The notes beneath the pieces were generated by a model. It was not told the origin of the DNA. It did no database searches and saw only the letters and a list, made by a program, of their open reading frames with translations. Position numbers and translations under genes: made by a program. Of a DNA stretch of 64,000 nucleotides, positions 1 to 5,290 are shown piece by piece (the first letter of the stretch is position 1; every line of letters begins with the position of its first letter). Source of the stretch: Fidelibacterota bacterium (GTDB taxonomy: Bacteria > Fidelibacterota > UBA8477 > JABMPR01); assembly GCA_021734325.1 (NCBI GenBank), contig JAIPJF010000019.1:1-64000 (forward strand), in the 5' to 3' direction.

Positions 1-141
1 CAGTGCAGATGCATGCACAAAAGAGGATGACAATCAAAACATGGCGAAATGGAAAAGCCCCACGAAATCGGGTGATCTCGTGAGGCTTTTTACTGTATCT
101 TCTCGCCTGAAACCTGTCAACCTATATCAGGACGAGACAGT

Positions 142-280
142 GTGGCCAGGGACCAGCCTGCGCTCGTTGAGCTTCGGCTTGGCAGGCGGAATTGCCAGCG
201 GGCTTCGCCCGTGGCTCTACTCAGAGACCTGCTTCTAGCAGCTCTCTTCGTGGTGAACCGCCTCCTCGCTAGTGCTCGGG
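142..280 (-). pseudogene. Decayed tRNA-Phe-like copy with two palindromic inserts (copy 1)
   Basis: Read on the minus strand, tRNA-Phe pieces occur in correct order: GGCGGTTC (262-255), AATTCC (193-188) and GTCCCTGGCCACA (153-141). They are identical to the intact gene at 513-585 but are separated by a 61-nt insert at 194-254 and a 34-nt insert at 154-187. Both inserts fold: gcctgc/gcaggc arms close the 34-nt one, and the 61-nt one contains two hairpins. The 5' half of the tRNA is degraded. It cannot encode a functional tRNA as it stands. Confidence 0.6.
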
Positions 281-312
281 AAGACGATTAAATCCACCAT
301 CCGCATAAAAAC

Positions 313-338
313 AAAAAACCCGCAGAAGCGGGCTTTTT
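313..338 (-). terminator. Intrinsic terminator downstream of the interrupted tRNA copy
   Basis: A cccgc/gcggg stem (319-323 with 328-332) with an AGAA loop is flanked by A-rich sequence on one side and T-rich sequence on the other, so it can terminate in both directions. On the minus strand it follows the tRNA-like copy whose 3' end is at 344. Confidence 0.7.
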
Positions 339-343
339 ATTTT

Positions 344-450
344 TGTGGCCAGGGACGGAATTCCCGCCTGCTGACTGCGTTAGCAGTCGGGCAGGCCAGT
401 CCGACAGTCGTCAGACTGGCGGGGAACCGCGCTCGATTCTCTGCTAGCTA
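344..450 (-). pseudogene. Decayed tRNA-Phe-like copy with a 61-nt palindromic insert (copy 2)
   Basis: On the minus strand GCGGTTC (430-424) and AATTCCGTCCCTGGCCACA (362-344) match the T-arm and acceptor end of the intact tRNA-Phe. They are split by a 61-nt insert at 363-423 whose ends are cccgcc and ggcggg and whose interior forms two hairpins. Short matches to the D-arm (TAGCT, AGCAG) remain near 436-450, with the anticodon arm largely lost. Position and insert length are the same as in copy 1, although the insert sequences differ. Confidence 0.65.
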
Positions 451-477
451 GATAAAATCGCACCAACCTATAGAAAC

Positions 478-506
478 AAAAAAACCCACTGATGTGGGTT
501 TCTTTA
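478..506 (-). terminator. Intrinsic terminator of tRNA-Phe
   Basis: An acccac/gtgggt stem (484-489 with 494-499) with a TGAT loop is followed on the minus strand by a T-run. It lies a few bases after the 3' end of the intact tRNA-Phe. Confidence 0.75.
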
Positions 507-512
507 TTTCTG

Positions 513-585
513 TGGCCAGGGACGGAATTGAACCGCCGACACGGGGATTTTCAGTCCCCTGCTCTACCGACTGAGCTACCTGGCC
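513..585 (-). tRNA. tRNA-Phe (anticodon GAA)
   Basis: The 73-nt cloverleaf has a 7-bp acceptor stem (GGCCAGG/CCTGGCC), a D-arm GCTC..GAGC, an anticodon stem GGGGA/TCCCC with loop CTGAAAA (GAA at 552-550), a T-arm GGCGG-TTCAATT-CCGTC and discriminator A. The 3' CCA is not encoded (ACA follows), so it must be added by a CCA-adding enzyme such as the one at 41351. It is the only intact copy in a local array of degraded copies. Confidence 0.95.
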
Positions 586-590
586 TTGTC

Positions 591-624
591 AATTCATAAT
601 TACAAATTAGGAATTACGAATGAC
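591..624. repeat. AT-rich AATTAC-type short repeat
   Basis: The stretch is built from repeated aattac/aaatt words and ends in gaatgac. From memory, near-identical tracts are scattered between genes in many unrelated bacterial genomes. It directly borders the tRNA 5' end. Confidence 0.4.
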
Positions 625-659
625 ACTATAAAAAATCTGTCTCTCTGTCAAAATCTCAG

Positions 660-727
660 GTAGCGAAGGAGGAGACTGCCTGTCCCGTCGAAGCGTTTTG
701 CGTAGACGGAAGCTACCTGGCCCTGTC
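660..727 (-). pseudogene. tRNA-Phe 5'-end fragment with palindromic insert (copy 0)
   Basis: Positions 711-727 match 574-590 (tRNA 5' end plus leader) in 16 of 17 bases. On the minus strand the tRNA-like start GGCCAGGTAGCT is followed at once by an inverted repeat (ccgtc 685-689 with gacgg 705-709) and not by the D-loop. No anticodon arm is recognisable. Confidence 0.45.
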
Positions 728-728
728 G

Positions 729-754
729 CGTCGTAGCCTGTTAAGGCGAAGACG
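729..754. repeat. REP-like palindrome
   Basis: The cgtcgtagcct and aaggcgaagacg arms form an imperfect hairpin, similar in style to the 685-709 palindrome just before it. Together they form a small cluster of palindromic elements beside the tRNA array. Confidence 0.4.
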
Positions 755-831
755 GACAAAATTTTATCAAATCACCACGACACTGCGGTTATCTAGCCCG
801 TCTCCACCCGACTTGGCGGGTTTCGCCGTGG

Positions 832-855
832 TAATTTCTCCAATTGGAGAAATTA
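832..855. repeat. Perfect 24-bp palindrome
   Basis: Arms taatttctcc and ggagaaatta surround AATT, giving a perfect palindrome. It lies 40 bp beyond the stop of the minus-strand peptidase gene and could act as a transcript-end hairpin, although no T-run follows it. The 586-895 interval otherwise holds only repeat material. Confidence 0.5.
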
Positions 856-895
856 AGCGCGCAATAATAAGCTGTGGCCCCACAACTGACAATAC

Positions 896-1723
896 CTAAT
901 TTAATGAGAACTTCTGGATTGCCTCCCAGGGGATCTCAGTCATCCAGAATATGTACTGCCAGCCTAGTAGATTCCGCTGGCGACCAATGGAATTAAAGAT
1001 CCCAACTAATTTCCCTTCACTATTATAAACGGGAGCGCCGCTGATCCCATTGATGGGTACAGCGCCGGCAAAAGGGTATAAAGTATGCTCATCGAAAAGC
1101 TTCTGCTCGCAAACCAGACCCAGGGGATATCTAATGCCAGACAACCTTTCCTGAACCCTGATCACCTGATCATCCTCAGTAACTCCCAAACCCCCAGGGT
1201 ATCCGAGAACCAGAACCTTATTCCCTGTATCTGCCAGTGATAACGGTTCGGGAGAAAGATGCTCAATTGCAATGATGGGTTTCAGAATGGCCCAGTCCTC
1301 AGGCGCAGACTTTTTCTTGTCAACGGCAAACCCCATCACATCCACGACTCTTTCGATATTTGCGACTGTCCGAATGCGAACCTGGGTGATTTTACCGTCA
1401 TCAATCACAAAACCATGACCTGCCGTAAGAATGAGTGAAGCATCATGAAGCAGTATCCCAGACTGCTGGGCTTGTTCCTTTTCACCATCATCCCACTCAA
1501 TATCAATAAAGACCATCACAACTTCTTCACGTCGGGAGCCCCAGATCTTATTCAATGATGAATCCTGCTCAACAGTTGCTAAAAATTGGGTGTGCCCGGT
1601 CTGAAACAGATCGGTAAAATCAACCAGATGCGACGATTTTGCTTCGACGGGGAGAGATGCAAGGGGTGAGCTGCAGCTAGATAGCAATACGATCATGAGT
1701 GGGTATATGAATATTTTTATCAA
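896..1723 (-). CDS. Exported trypsin-like serine peptidase, probable lipoprotein
   Basis: This is a chymotrypsin/V8-fold peptidase likely to act on the periplasmic side. The triad is visible as LTAGHG (His), EDWAIL (Asp) and GISGAPV (Ser in a G-x-S-G context). The preferred start is TTG at 1723, preceded by GGGGA. From there the protein begins with a hydrophobic segment ending in LLSSC, a lipobox, giving about 275 residues. The longer reading frame to 1873 would run into the divergent rlmN gene and put a long non-signal extension before the signal peptide. Substrate is unknown. A single peptidase domain is seen, with no PDZ domain, which separates it from DegP-type proteases. Confidence 0.75.
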   Translation of the reverse strand: MIKIFIYPLMIVLLSSCSSPLASLPVEAKSSHLVDFTDLFQTGHTQFLATVEQDSSLNKIWGSRREEVVMVFIDIEWDDGEKEQAQQSGILLHDASLILTAGHGFVIDDGKITQVRIRTVANIERVVDVMGFAVDKKKSAPEDWAILKPIIAIEHLSPEPLSLADTGNKVLVLGYPGGLGVTEDDQVIRVQERLSGIRYPLGLVCEQKLFDEHTLYPFAGAVPINGISGAPVYNSEGKLVGIFNSIGRQRNLLGWQYIFWMTEIPWEAIQKFSLN

Positions 1724-1811
1724 GCGTGTCCCCTTGTCTGACTTAAAATAGCTCAGCACCAGCCAATAAAAGAAGATGTTTTTCTCCACGCGCTCGTGTG
1801 TATTTTCAGAC

Positions 1812-2852
1812 ATGAGTCCTGAAAAGATCCAGCTTAAGAATTTCACGCTCCCAGAAATGGAAAAGTGGGTCACGTCCCTGGGCGAACCGGCATTTCGTGG
1901 TCGTCAGCTTTTTCAGTGGATCTGGGAAAAGGGAGCCCGGGATTTCTCGGAGATGACCAATCTACCCAAACCTCTCATCAGTCAACTGGAAAAAACCTGC
2001 GAACTGAATCTCACGACTATCCATCAGATCCAGAAATCTGAACTCCAGGGAACTTCAAAGTTCCTCATTCGACTAGGGGATGGTAAATTTGTTGAAACCG
2101 TCCTCATTCCTGAAGAAAAGCGCGTCACAGTCTGTTTGTCATCACAAGTTGGCTGTGCCCTGGATTGCGATTTCTGTGCCACCGGAAAAATGGGACTCCT
2201 GCGAAATCTGACCAGCGGGGAGATCGCAGATCAACTCCTCCATGTTCGCCAGGTAAGTGAGCGACCCATAACAAACATTGTCTTTATGGGGATGGGAGAA
2301 CCCTTCCATAATTATGAGCAGGTGATTCGGGCTGCAAACATGTTGAATGATGATCTGGGATTTTCCCATGGCGCCAGGAAAATCACGATCTCTACCAGTG
2401 GGTTGGTTCCACAAATCAGACGCTTCGCAGATGAGGGACATCGTTTCAAACTCGCAGTGAGTCTGAACGCCAGTGATAACGATACACGATCAAGTATCAT
2501 GCCCGTGAATAAGAGATGGGATATATCAGACCTGGTCAAAGCCTGTCAGTATTACACAAAAGCATCCAAAAACATGATCACCTTTGAATATGTTCTTTTG
2601 GATAATATCAATGATTCCATTCAGGATGCCAAACGTCTGCAAATGATCGCCAATCAGGTTTTCTGTAAAGTGAACGTGATACCATACAACGAAGTGGCTG
2701 AGGGTTATGCCAGACCATCCAAGAAACGCATAAGCCGGTTTGTGGAAGCCCTGGAGGGCTCTCAATTTCCAGTGACGATCCGATGGAGCCAGGGCGATGA
2801 TATTGATGCGGCCTGCGGTCAACTGAGTACGGCAGCCCAAGGGGAGAGCTAA
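1812..2852 (+). CDS. rlmN: Dual-specificity 23S rRNA/tRNA adenine-C2 methyltransferase RlmN
   Basis: RlmN is a radical-SAM enzyme that methylates C2 of A2503 in 23S rRNA and of A37 in some tRNAs. The 346-residue protein carries CALDCDFC, with the [4Fe-4S] cysteines at 115, 119 and 122. Cys108 and Cys335 (in AACGQL) sit where the family has its resolving and methyl-carrier cysteines. GMGEPF and the SLNA segment of the family are also present. The start MSPEKIQ at 1812 is chosen over an in-frame ATG at 1776 because the upstream residues are not family-like and would extend into the divergent peptidase gene. The downstream phosphorylase follows within 26 bp. Confidence 0.95.
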   Translation: MSPEKIQLKNFTLPEMEKWVTSLGEPAFRGRQLFQWIWEKGARDFSEMTNLPKPLISQLEKTCELNLTTIHQIQKSELQGTSKFLIRLGDGKFVETVLIPEEKRVTVCLSSQVGCALDCDFCATGKMGLLRNLTSGEIADQLLHVRQVSERPITNIVFMGMGEPFHNYEQVIRAANMLNDDLGFSHGARKITISTSGLVPQIRRFADEGHRFKLAVSLNASDNDTRSSIMPVNKRWDISDLVKACQYYTKASKNMITFEYVLLDNINDSIQDAKRLQMIANQVFCKVNVIPYNEVAEGYARPSKKRISRFVEALEGSQFPVTIRWSQGDDIDAACGQLSTAAQGES

Positions 2853-2878
2853 ATGAGTTTACTGGGTGCAATTCAGAA

Positions 2879-3661
2879 ATGATTAATAGGGCAATCACAG
2901 CAATTCATAAAAAAGGCGAATTCAAAGCCAAAATCGCCCTGGTCCTGGGGTCTGGTCTGGGAAATTTTGTTGAATCCCTTTCGAACCCTACTTCCATACC
3001 ATTTTCAGAGATACCTGGTTTCCCTATCTCCACAGTCGAGGGTCATTCCGGGGAAATGGTACACGGGTACCTGGATGATATCCCTGTCCTGGTCAATTCC
3101 GGCAGGGTGCATTTTTATGAGGGCTATTCCCTCGCTGAAGTGGTCTACCCCATTCGCATTCTCAAAGCCCTGGGTGCTGAATCCATTGTGCTCACCAACG
3201 CAGCTGGCAGTATCCGAAAAGATTATATCCCAGGCGATCTGATGCTTATTGACAGACTGCTTAATCTGACAGGTCGCTCAGTTTACAAAGGAGGAAAAGA
3301 GCCGGATTCAATATTTGATAATGAAATACTTGATAACATTCGACTGATCGCTAAGAGAGCTGGAATCAATTTAAAGCTTGGGTCTTATGCCGGATTAAAT
3401 GGTCCCTCCTATGAAACTCCTGCTGAAATCCGATTCCTCAGATTAAAGAAAGCAGATGCTGTCGGCATGTCTACGGTGCATGAAAGCATGGCTGCTTTTC
3501 AAGCAGGATTGAAAGTTGTGGGACTTAGCTGTCTTACCAATTATGCAGCTGGTATTTTAGATCAAGCACTGAACCATGCAGAAGTCATGGAAACGGGACT
3601 TCGTGTACGTGACGATTTTGCCCGTTTGCTCAGTGAGCTAATTCGGTCTCAAGCCTTTTAA
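2879..3661 (+). CDS. Purine nucleoside phosphorylase (trimeric PNP/MTAP family)
   Basis: The predicted reaction is phosphorolysis of purine nucleosides to base and ribose-1-phosphate in the salvage pathway. The 260-residue protein shows VLGSGLGNF, EGHSGEM, RVHFYEGYS, LTNAAGSI, GPSYETPAEIRF, VGMSTV and CLTNYAAG in family order. Asn in TNYAAG favours 6-oxopurine nucleosides over methylthioadenosine, where the family usually has Asp. One departure is VHESMAA after GMST, where VPE is usual. The gene overlaps the stop of a nine-codon open frame (2853-2882) lying between it and rlmN, so translation may be coupled to rlmN. Confidence 0.9.
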   Translation: MINRAITAIHKKGEFKAKIALVLGSGLGNFVESLSNPTSIPFSEIPGFPISTVEGHSGEMVHGYLDDIPVLVNSGRVHFYEGYSLAEVVYPIRILKALGAESIVLTNAAGSIRKDYIPGDLMLIDRLLNLTGRSVYKGGKEPDSIFDNEILDNIRLIAKRAGINLKLGSYAGLNGPSYETPAEIRFLRLKKADAVGMSTVHESMAAFQAGLKVVGLSCLTNYAAGILDQALNHAEVMETGLRVRDDFARLLSELIRSQAF

Positions 3662-3716
3662 ACAAAGGCTTTCCCTAAAATTCAATCGAACTCATTTTCA
3701 GTTATTTTTTTAATAT

Positions 3717-3748
3717 ATCAAACTGATATGGCACTATATCAGTTTGAT
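3717..3748. promoter_or_regulatory. Perfect 13-bp inverted repeat, possible operator or hairpin
   Basis: Arms atcaaactgatat and atatcagtttgat are separated by six bases. It lies 56 bp after the phosphorylase stop and about 180 bp before the PDZ protein. No T-run follows closely, so an operator is as likely as a terminator. The rest of 3662-3928 is AT-rich with no other clear element. Confidence 0.5.
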
Positions 3749-3928
3749 GCTAAATTAGAGAGCTTTTTGTAAATGAATGACAGTGATTATATGTCATTAT
3801 ACTAATATATAACAATATGTTAGCATGGTTTCCTTTCATTGTGGCATGGCTATTGTCCTAATACTGGGCAAATGAATCGAACTAAAACAATGAAAACGGA
3901 AAACAATAGATTGGAAAGGAACCCGAAC

Positions 3929-5290
3929 ATGAAGAACAAAACGCAGCAATATCCGATGTTGAGCACATTCTCAGCAGCATTGATGGCCATCGCAAATGGT
4001 GGTGCACTGGTGAGTGTGATTGTTTTGACCGTATCGTTCTTATTGGCGACACCTGTGAATGCACAGGACAGCAAGACTGTACGAGATGTCAAACTTGAAA
4101 TGAACAAACTAGATAAAGAAATTGCCCAGGCGGCGGTGGAAATTCAAGAGGCACTGGACGAGGTTGGCATCGAAACAGGCATCAAGATTCATATCGATGA
4201 AGACGATGAAGATTCACGCCCAAAACTTGGTGTCTATCTTAGTGATATGGATTTTGAGGATGCCTATAAAATGCGCTATCCCTTCGCCCATGGTGTACTG
4301 GTAGACGGTGTCACAAATAATGGCAATGCCGATCGCGCCGGACTTATCGAAGATGATATCATCATGTATTTCGATGGAACAAAAGTTCTTTATGAGGACC
4401 ACCTGGTACGCCTGATCAGAAGTAGAAATTTTGGTGACAAGGTTGAACTCGTCTACTGGCGGGATGAAGCCAGGGATACAACCTGGGTGACTTTTCAAGC
4501 ACCTGTTAAAAAGGAAAAAACCGACACTCAGTTGACCATTGTCGATGAGAAGAAAAAGGACAAAAAGCACAAAAATTCCCGTGGTTGGGGTGGTGGTGGA
4601 TTCACACCGATGCTGGTCCAGGACGAGGGAAATACTTTTGCTGATGTTGAGGCGATCATGACTGAATTAGGTCTTGCCTCAAGTCCTTTCCGCTCTGAAG
4701 GAATTGTTCTCTGGGGTGGATCAGGTCAGGGATATGTCGGTAATGGCTGGTTTCTTGGAGGTTTCGGAAACGGCGGTGGTGTATCCAACAAAGTTACAGC
4801 AGTTCACAGCAATGATGGTAGCGCCTTGGCTGGTACTACAGTTGAACGAGAGATCAGCTTTAAAATGGGTTTTGGTGGGCTGACGATTGAAAAACGCCTG
4901 GCACCATTCTCATGGGCGGTCATTGGTGGCGGTACCGGTATCGGTCTTGGTGGGATTGATCTCAATGTGACTCAGGATGATGGAAAATTTACCTGGACCA
5001 ATCTGAACGATGAACTGATCGAAACAAAGAGCACCTCAGTTAATTTCTCAAAGAACTATTTCATCCTTCACCCAAGAGCCAATGTGATGATCAGATTAAC
5101 CTCATGGATGAGGCTGAAAGCTGAATACGGATATCTATATGGCTATGGCTTCAATGATGGTTGGAAAACAACCCTGGGTAATAACGCCCTTGATTCAAAA
5201 CCCGACACCTATGAACTGGTAGGCAGTCAGGGCAAACTATCTGAACTGGGAACGACCACCCTTTCACTGGGTCTCTGGTTCGGATTCTAA
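3929..5290 (+). CDS. Exported PDZ-domain protein with C-terminal barrel-like region
   Basis: I do not recognise the family as a whole. The ATG at 3929 is preceded by GGAAAGGA with 8-nt spacing and opens a signal peptide ending near VNAQ, giving about 453 residues. After a short coiled-coil-like acidic stretch, a PDZ domain spans roughly residues 100-185 (LGVYL..HGVLVDGV..ADRAGLIEDDIIMYFDG). A Lys-rich and Gly-rich linker follows. The C-terminal 230 residues alternate in a way typical of outer-membrane beta strands and end in LGLWFGF, with a terminal Phe. No protease triad is visible. It may be an outer-membrane protein with a periplasmic PDZ sensor. A monocistronic unit is likely. Confidence 0.65.
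   Translation: MKNKTQQYPMLSTFSAALMAIANGGALVSVIVLTVSFLLATPVNAQDSKTVRDVKLEMNKLDKEIAQAAVEIQEALDEVGIETGIKIHIDEDDEDSRPKLGVYLSDMDFEDAYKMRYPFAHGVLVDGVTNNGNADRAGLIEDDIIMYFDGTKVLYEDHLVRLIRSRNFGDKVELVYWRDEARDTTWVTFQAPVKKEKTDTQLTIVDEKKKDKKHKNSRGWGGGGFTPMLVQDEGNTFADVEAIMTELGLASSPFRSEGIVLWGGSGQGYVGNGWFLGGFGNGGGVSNKVTAVHSNDGSALAGTTVEREISFKMGFGGLTIEKRLAPFSWAVIGGGTGIGLGGIDLNVTQDDGKFTWTNLNDELIETKSTSVNFSKNYFILHPRANVMIRLTSWMRLKAEYGYLYGYGFNDGWKTTLGNNALDSKPDTYELVGSQGKLSELGTTTLSLGLWFGF

Follow-up and report, generated by a model that had tools for sequence, protein, structure and literature searches.

Tandem repeats that begin with the 3' end of a tRNA lie behind the tyrT gene of E. coli (RtT RNA), and small palindromes thought to be mobile occur in Rickettsia and, as double-hairpin elements, in fungal mitochondria. 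To our knowledge, the tyrT repeats carry no hairpin inserts, and we know of no preference of the Rickettsia or fungal mitochondrial elements for tRNA loops. Bacterial REP sequences are palindromes of 20-50 nt with a conserved 5' motif and stem mismatches, occurring singly and as inverted pairs (REPINs) and associated with the transposase TnpA-REP, or RAYT (PMC8266576, PMC3733652). TnpA-REP is described as requiring a tetranucleotide that is conserved and, in E. coli, also a bulge in the stem, and entry as a single strand has been proposed for REPs with TnpA-REP (PMC8266576). Integrative elements that attach at tRNA genes leave a regenerated tRNA and a displaced tRNA end (PMC4383910). Partial tRNA copies left by integration are also described as prokaryotic tRNA gene fragments, and the accessible part of that account describes no palindromic inserts in them (PMC9897764). 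Both tRNA-gene integration and REP-type palindromes are already known; no description of palindromes lodged in bacterial tRNA relics was found in the open-access literature, which is what the search covered (subscription papers lay outside it).

Here we describe such palindromes at a tRNA-Phe locus of a Fidelibacterota bacterium (GenBank assembly GCA_021734325.1, contig JAIPJF010000019.1). The window, meaning the whole stretch of DNA analysed, is the first 64,000 nt of the contig, which belongs to a 2.93-Mb metagenome-assembled genome that is 84% complete. R1 denotes a covariance model of the single-hairpin form of the palindromes (4 bp, GNA, 4 bp, loop, 4 bp, GNA, 4 bp). The features of the locus are as follows.

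512-585, minus strand: intact tRNA-Phe(GAA) gene (ARAGORN; Rfam tRNA, 71.8 bits at 513-585)
478-511, minus strand: terminator-like hairpin behind tRNA-Phe (fold z -5.1, folded as 478-512)
440-465, minus strand: head of unit 2, whose core GATTTTATCTAGCT resembles the heads of congener units
424-430, minus strand: copy 2, 5' part of the T-arm, GCGGTTC (split alignment)
363-423, minus strand: copy 2, T-loop insert of 61 nt, an inverted hairpin pair around GTCGGACTGGCCTGCCCGAC
344-362, minus strand: copy 2, 3' part of the T-loop to the tRNA 3' end, AATTCCGTCCCTGGCCACA (19/19 identical)
305-343, minus strand: terminator-like hairpin behind copy 2 (fold z -6.9, folded as 305-345)
255-262, minus strand: copy 3, 5' part of the T-arm, GGCGGTTC (split alignment)
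194-254, minus strand: copy 3, T-loop insert of 61 nt with two hairpins, unrelated to the copy-2 insert
188-193, minus strand: copy 3, AATTCC (split alignment)
154-187, minus strand: copy 3, 34-nt hairpin element at the T-stem/acceptor junction, with foot CCTGCC and a GNA/GNA loop (R1 match 155-179, 34.3 bits)
141-153, minus strand: copy 3, acceptor 3' strand, GTCCCTGGCCACA (repeat search; exact 13-nt match)
57-95, minus strand: terminator-like hairpin behind copy 3 (fold z -6.0)
711-727, minus strand: decayed copy of the tRNA-Phe 5' end and flank (17-nt repeat of 574-590, 94%)
679-710, plus strand: hairpin element at the D-arm point of the 5' copy (between TAGCT and CAG), with a CCTGTC foot and directed away from the tRNA (R1 match 686-708, 19.3 bits)
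722-755, plus strand: second hairpin element upstream of tRNA-Phe, its foot overlapping the tRNA flank copy (R1 match 729-754, 25.5 bits)

Outward from the 3' end of tRNA-Phe, the order is thus terminator-like hairpin, copy 2, hairpin, copy 3, hairpin. A sequence-only reading of this DNA had proposed two tRNA-Phe relics beside the intact gene, each interrupted in the T-loop by 61 nt at one and the same point; the coordinates and the split alignment agree with this, with a one-base ambiguity of the point in copy 3. The 34-nt palindrome that it had placed in the far copy is likewise present (187-154) at the T-stem/acceptor junction, and folds weakly as delimited here (DNA z -1.8, RNA z -2.1). 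Copy 3 resembles this core of congener heads by eye only. With up to three mismatches allowed, a longer head motif of cargo-less units is present in seven of the 18 congeners; at that threshold, the copy-2 head gave no match and the own genome none. Beyond the 5' end of the gene, a decayed 5'-end copy with hairpin elements occupies ~661-755, its alignment score being equalled by one of 42 other pairings (intact tRNAs masked).

Positions 1-139 of the window are shared with the first 139 positions of another contig of the same assembly (C37), and the two diverge at base 140. The point of divergence adjoins the outer border of copy 3, and C37 continues into a gene. The shared start may reflect variation between strains or a repeat at the array border.

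The reading that we favour, with a probability of roughly 0.6, is that the units are displaced tRNA ends from integrative elements, colonised by genus-specific REP-like palindromes. Integrative elements attaching at tRNA genes would bring a replacement end, each insertion displacing the old end outward, and tandem rounds of integration would give rows of old tRNA ends. Small palindromic elements, of a family that is almost confined to this genus of Neomarinimicrobiota, would then have colonised these relics, in two forms, a single hairpin of ~32-38 nt and an inverted hairpin pair, as the 61-nt insert of copy 2 is. Within the tRNA outline, the elements lie at a few discrete points (after nt 7, D-arm, T-loop and T-stem/acceptor junction), and probably moved into short targets at those points as single-stranded hairpins, in the fashion of REPs. 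Hairpins may persist in relics because their insertion would destroy a working tRNA.

The tRNA specificity of the copies was assessed by alignments in which long gaps cost little: each tRNA end was set against its own flank and against those of the 42 other tRNA genes. Intact neighbouring tRNAs raised the off-target scores in the unmasked form of this pairing test and are removed in the masked form. In the split alignment, the last 40 nt of tRNA-Phe score 19.8 against their own downstream flank, versus 13.2 for the best of the 42 others (10.5 masked). Across the 43 tRNA genes of the own genome (masked), 3' copies are superior to all 42 other pairings for ten genes (Lys-ttt, Lys-ctt, three Met-type, Phe, Pro-tgg, Pro-ggg, Ala-ggc and Ser-tga), and 5' copies for five (Lys-ttt, Val-tac, Pro-tgg, Ala-ggc and Leu-taa). 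The observed mean pairing score was reached by none of 20,000 permutations on either side (masked).

Splits at the T-loop point, which the sequence-only reading had suggested looking for at other tRNA genes, were assessed with a strict test: 5/43 genes have at least 16 of 18 flank bases, versus 0.02 expected, and in one of the five (Met, locus L092) the left flank is supplied by the unit head. At 14/18 the result is weak (12 versus 3.45 expected), and such cases were therefore left out of the count. The corresponding D-arm split upstream is not significant (1/43 at 16/20, versus 0.36 expected), so that the 5' copies depend on the free split alignment. Plain chance similarity, which had been named as the outcome to guard against, is hardly credible: the short flanks GGTTC and AATTCC are weak by themselves, but the 3' matches of 19 and 13 nt are exact, and copies recur at other tRNAs of the genome and in congeners.

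Some copies elsewhere in the own genome differ in build. Upstream of tRNA-Val(tac) (L091) the first 28 nt of the tRNA are copied (28/28) 72 nt before the intact gene, and upstream of tRNA-Ala(ggc) (L114) the first 26 nt (25/26) 79 nt before it, in both cases without an insert. At tRNA-Pro(ggg) (L109), tandem copies carry the palindrome TCCCGACATGTATGTCGGGA in place of the anticodon arm.

A 44-nt tRNA-Phe pattern has 29 matching stretches, 22 of them from Candidatus Neomarinimicrobiota. Among 20 congener stretches, which were fetched because they matched tRNA-Phe, 14 contain a total of 17 unsplit tRNA-Phe halves running from nt 28-31 to nt 72-75, and in five a second tRNA-Phe end or intact gene is ~2.9-5.1 kb distant. 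Three ORFs picked beside tRNA-Phe, two in congeners (L082 and L071) and one in a relative from the phylum (L018), encode phage-type integrases (PF00589). Judged by their sequence, the congener halves are the displaced-end signature of tRNA-gene integration (PMC4383910, PMC9897764). The Phe copies in the window keep T-arm and acceptor pieces only and lack the anticodon-half boundary; an integrase origin is therefore proposed for them by analogy.

Duplication of the att site had been offered as an alternative explanation of the repeats. It is better seen as the likely source of the copies, given the congener halves ~3-5 kb apart and the integrases, and integration is likely to be a companion to hairpin targeting, not its rival. 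The tRNA-Phe halves and integrases of the relatives resemble known tRNA-gene integrative elements (PMC4383910), whereas the window has cargo-free rows of decayed ends, and integration leaves the hairpin inserts unexplained. In four congener loci (L034, L035, L036 and L038), segments of ~3-5 kb with ORFs of up to 992 aa lie between tRNA-Phe ends; no integrase was recognised by eye in their ORF lists, and the segments look like cassette arrays.

Displaced ends could also be left by GIY-YIG nucleases behind tRNA genes, acting as homing-type elements that cut the tRNA end and carry the hairpins. Six of the eight GIY-YIG domain matches in the own genome lie behind a tRNA gene (five, one being the second of a tandem) or the tmRNA gene (one). 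The small proteins concerned are encoded behind Lys(ttt) (L090, two in tandem), Ala(ggc) (L114), Ser(tga) (L116), Ala(cgc) (L139) and tmRNA (L191); at Lys(ttt) and Ser(tga), the ORF is in turn followed by a copy of that tRNA's own end. These tRNA-adjacent ORFs point to a second kind of tRNA-end element. R1 matches are present in four of the eight GIY-YIG loci, two of which overlap, but this association is confounded, both features lying near tRNA genes. No GIY-YIG match lies near the Phe array, and the putative nucleases are proteins of only ~85-95 aa, known from sequence, which leaves this an unlikely account of the arrays.

Both T-loop inserts outfold their shuffles (RNA z -5.6 for copy 2 and -4.3 for copy 3; DNA z -5.4 and -5.1). 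Each holds two hairpins, and their sequences are unrelated, as the sequence-only reading had stated. Their equal length of 61 nt, which that reading had noted, looks coincidental, because inserts at the same T-loop site in congeners span ~30 to 64 nt. The copy-2 insert consists of a near-palindromic core with a hairpin on either side. Its core GTCGGNNNGGCCNNNCCGAC occurs exactly at four places in the 2.93-Mb own genome, all four within interrupted tRNA copies (the Phe T-loop, two tandem tRNA-Lys copies and a tRNA-Leu D-loop copy), and at none in the 18 congeners. With one mismatch allowed, there is one match in G005, and the reversed control gives 12 matches over 19 genomes, for which reason only exact matches were used. 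The recurrence foreseen for both inserts in the genome and its relatives thus holds for the copy-2 core, at its four places, and not for the copy-3 insert, of which no second full copy was found (own-genome BLAST with window 1-600; 447 kb of loci). BLAST of nine inserts against the 447 kb of loci returned relatives in tRNA-copy contexts and one 14-nt match elsewhere.

The T-loop hairpin motif GATGGAGGCGNAGCCGAACATC occurs with up to two mismatches at eight places in 7 of the 19 genus genomes (reversed control, 0). All eight lie in T-arms, five with Phe-type and three with Ser-type flanks, and the next bases are in every case AATTCC, AATCCC or CATCCC. The motif was derived from T-loop inserts, and six of the eight places were known beforehand, only the two in G005 being new.

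In the single form, of ~32-38 nt, the hairpin contains a symmetric internal loop, GNA/GNA, and is often preceded by a 5' foot CYTGYC. Of 91 unique hairpins, 48 have CYTGY in the 14 nt that precede them, compared with 6, 2 and 6 in three control stretches; the foot is absent from the other 43, and no foot position in the profile exceeds 0.66. A loose scan of the window finds 14 GNA/GNA hairpins, which is within the shuffle range of 10-23, and signal is separated from noise only by stricter settings and by the covariance model. A stricter scan of 231 kb of own-genome DNA (raw, with overlapping loci counted) gives 14 GNA hairpins, eight within 400 nt of a tRNA gene and six elsewhere, compared with two for the reversed motif. 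Covariation statistics of the hairpin alignment were not used because the hairpins were chosen for pairing.

R1 was trained on hairpins from loci fetched mostly for tRNA reasons, including the 34-nt element of copy 3; none of the listed training loci is from G012 or G017. At E<=0.01, R1 matches all 19 genus genomes (own included), with 1-42 copies in each, versus 5 of 41 other genomes. Matches within 300 nt of a tRNA gene number 8/19 in the own genome, 8/31 in G006, 11/30 in G012 and 6/36 in G017, against an expectation of 0.16-0.27 that assumes uniform placement, not placement in intergenic DNA only. More than half of the matches in each of these four genomes lie beyond 300 nt of tRNA genes, some of them in leader-like regions. 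Three leader-like regions of the own genome (L173, L185 and L177) share similar TATCCGCCTTCGC blocks together with GNA hairpins. Rfam reports no family at gathering score in them except a tRNA in L177, and the blocks are possibly an unrecognised structured leader.

Alignments of tRNA copies in the own genome show that the same insertion points are reused in different tRNAs.

After nt 7: Lys-ttt, Met
D-arm, between TAGCT and CAG: Lys-ttt, Met, Phe; shifted in Val-cac
D-loop: Leu-taa
T-loop: among others Phe twice, Pro-tgg, Asn, Ser-tga
T-stem/acceptor junction: Phe copy 3, two Met-type, Pro-ggg, Pro-tgg, Lys-ctt, Ser-tga

The anticodon loop and the variable region also serve as insertion points in congeners. 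In one instance, a hairpin stands in the loop of a copied tRNA-Val terminator (L186, compared with L091). The repeated targeting of T-loops by palindromic elements that the sequence-only reading had suggested therefore stands as a pattern (the core in 4/4 and the motif in 8/8 cases in tRNA copies, and positions reused), with the qualifications that the T-loop is not the sole site and that transposition itself is something we infer. A single filled/empty pair, read by eye, was found upstream of tRNA-Phe: L011 (G006) has a 34-nt hairpin with a CTTGTC foot, in the loop of a small stem, and L012 (G008) is without it. No consistent target duplication was seen.

Hairpins might instead grow in situ, by template switching or quasi-palindrome mutation at the palindromes of the tRNA itself (T-stem, D-stem), with no mobile element. 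Some heads do resemble the reverse complement of their own T-arm, a likeness as high in none of 10,000 permutations over the 43 genes, but Phe shows no such excess, its score being equalled or exceeded by 35 of the 42 other pairings. The same core or motif stands at different tRNAs with different flanks (Phe, Lys and Leu; Phe and Ser), the enriched foot lies outside the hairpin, and L011 and L012 differ by a clean 34 nt, all of which makes growth in place improbable. Reverse-complement copies of the own T-arm are present in some flanks at L091, L092, L094, L098 and L102, where some units are large quasi-palindromes; none was seen for Phe.

Orientation is uneven on the two sides of tRNA genes. 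In the four genomes, all 24 R1 hairpins within 500 nt upstream of a tRNA gene are directed away from the tRNA; within 500 nt downstream, eight are directed away and six towards it, two of the six lying between two tRNAs. This bears on the proposal that the units are functional structured RNAs, composed of a tRNA-like 3' end, hairpins and a terminator, with the inserts as selected structural arms. Such RNAs would account for the terminator-like hairpin that ends both 3' copies in the window, for the RNA folding of the 61-nt inserts (z -5.6 and -4.3), for the placement of hairpins at loops and helix junctions, and for R1-like hairpins in leader-like regions. However, the sequence and length of the inserts are wholly different among copies and species, the GNA strand is antisense in 24/24 upstream cases (<=500 nt) and hence not the strand of a leader RNA, and the only Rfam family at gathering score in window 1-5000 is tRNA. 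We accordingly give this proposal as little weight as growth in situ.

The favoured reading, colonisation of displaced tRNA ends by REP-like palindromes, invites comparison with REPs and REPINs. In their size, their stem mismatches and their occurrence in single and inverted-pair forms the elements recall REPs, and the enriched foot may correspond to the conserved 5' motif. The copy-2 core is near-palindromic with flanking hairpins, which is reminiscent of a REPIN, the REP identity of the single units being putative, and the CYTGYC foot and GNA/GNA loop would be analogues of the substrate features of TnpA-REP. The foot CYTGYC differs from the REP motif, GTAG or, in a second super-family, CGTC; copy number is low (1-42 per genome), a large share of copies is in tRNA-derived sites, and no Y1 gene is linked to the R1 hairpins (30 loci). 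These differences speak against membership of that group, though the hairpins may work like a REP.

Y1 transposase genes are present in 16 of the 19 genus genomes. A RAYT/Y1 driver was considered and rejected: R1 has no match (E<=0.1) at the 30 Y1 loci examined out of 38 Y1 matches, and the palindromes beside the six Y1 genes read look different. At L159 (own genome) and L148 (G017), Y1 genes are flanked by palindromes of the AACCGTT..AACGGTT and ACCCAACT..AGTTGGGT types, which seem to form a REP-like system of their own.

Among the other systems, the E. coli RtT repeats are alike in lying in tandem behind a tRNA gene and beginning with its 3' end; a scan of window 1-5000 gave no RtT match at E<=1. 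The Rickettsia and fungal mitochondrial elements differ in host and in sequence.

A more specific proposal, which we put forward tentatively and hold well below even odds, is a genus-specific element that inserts hairpin into hairpin. It would enter stem-loops that are already present, at a loop or junction (in the T-loop, D-arm, acceptor junction or terminator loop), and its mover would be an enzyme without a known link to palindromes; landing would take place at tRNA genes, and displaced ends would offer a refuge.

If the preference for loops and junctions is real, displaced tRNA ends would be a record of repeated insertions, orientation and target included, and the choice of site by REP-like hairpins would become directly testable. 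The 'junk' that flanks tRNA genes in uncultured marine bacteria can be structured, recurrent DNA.
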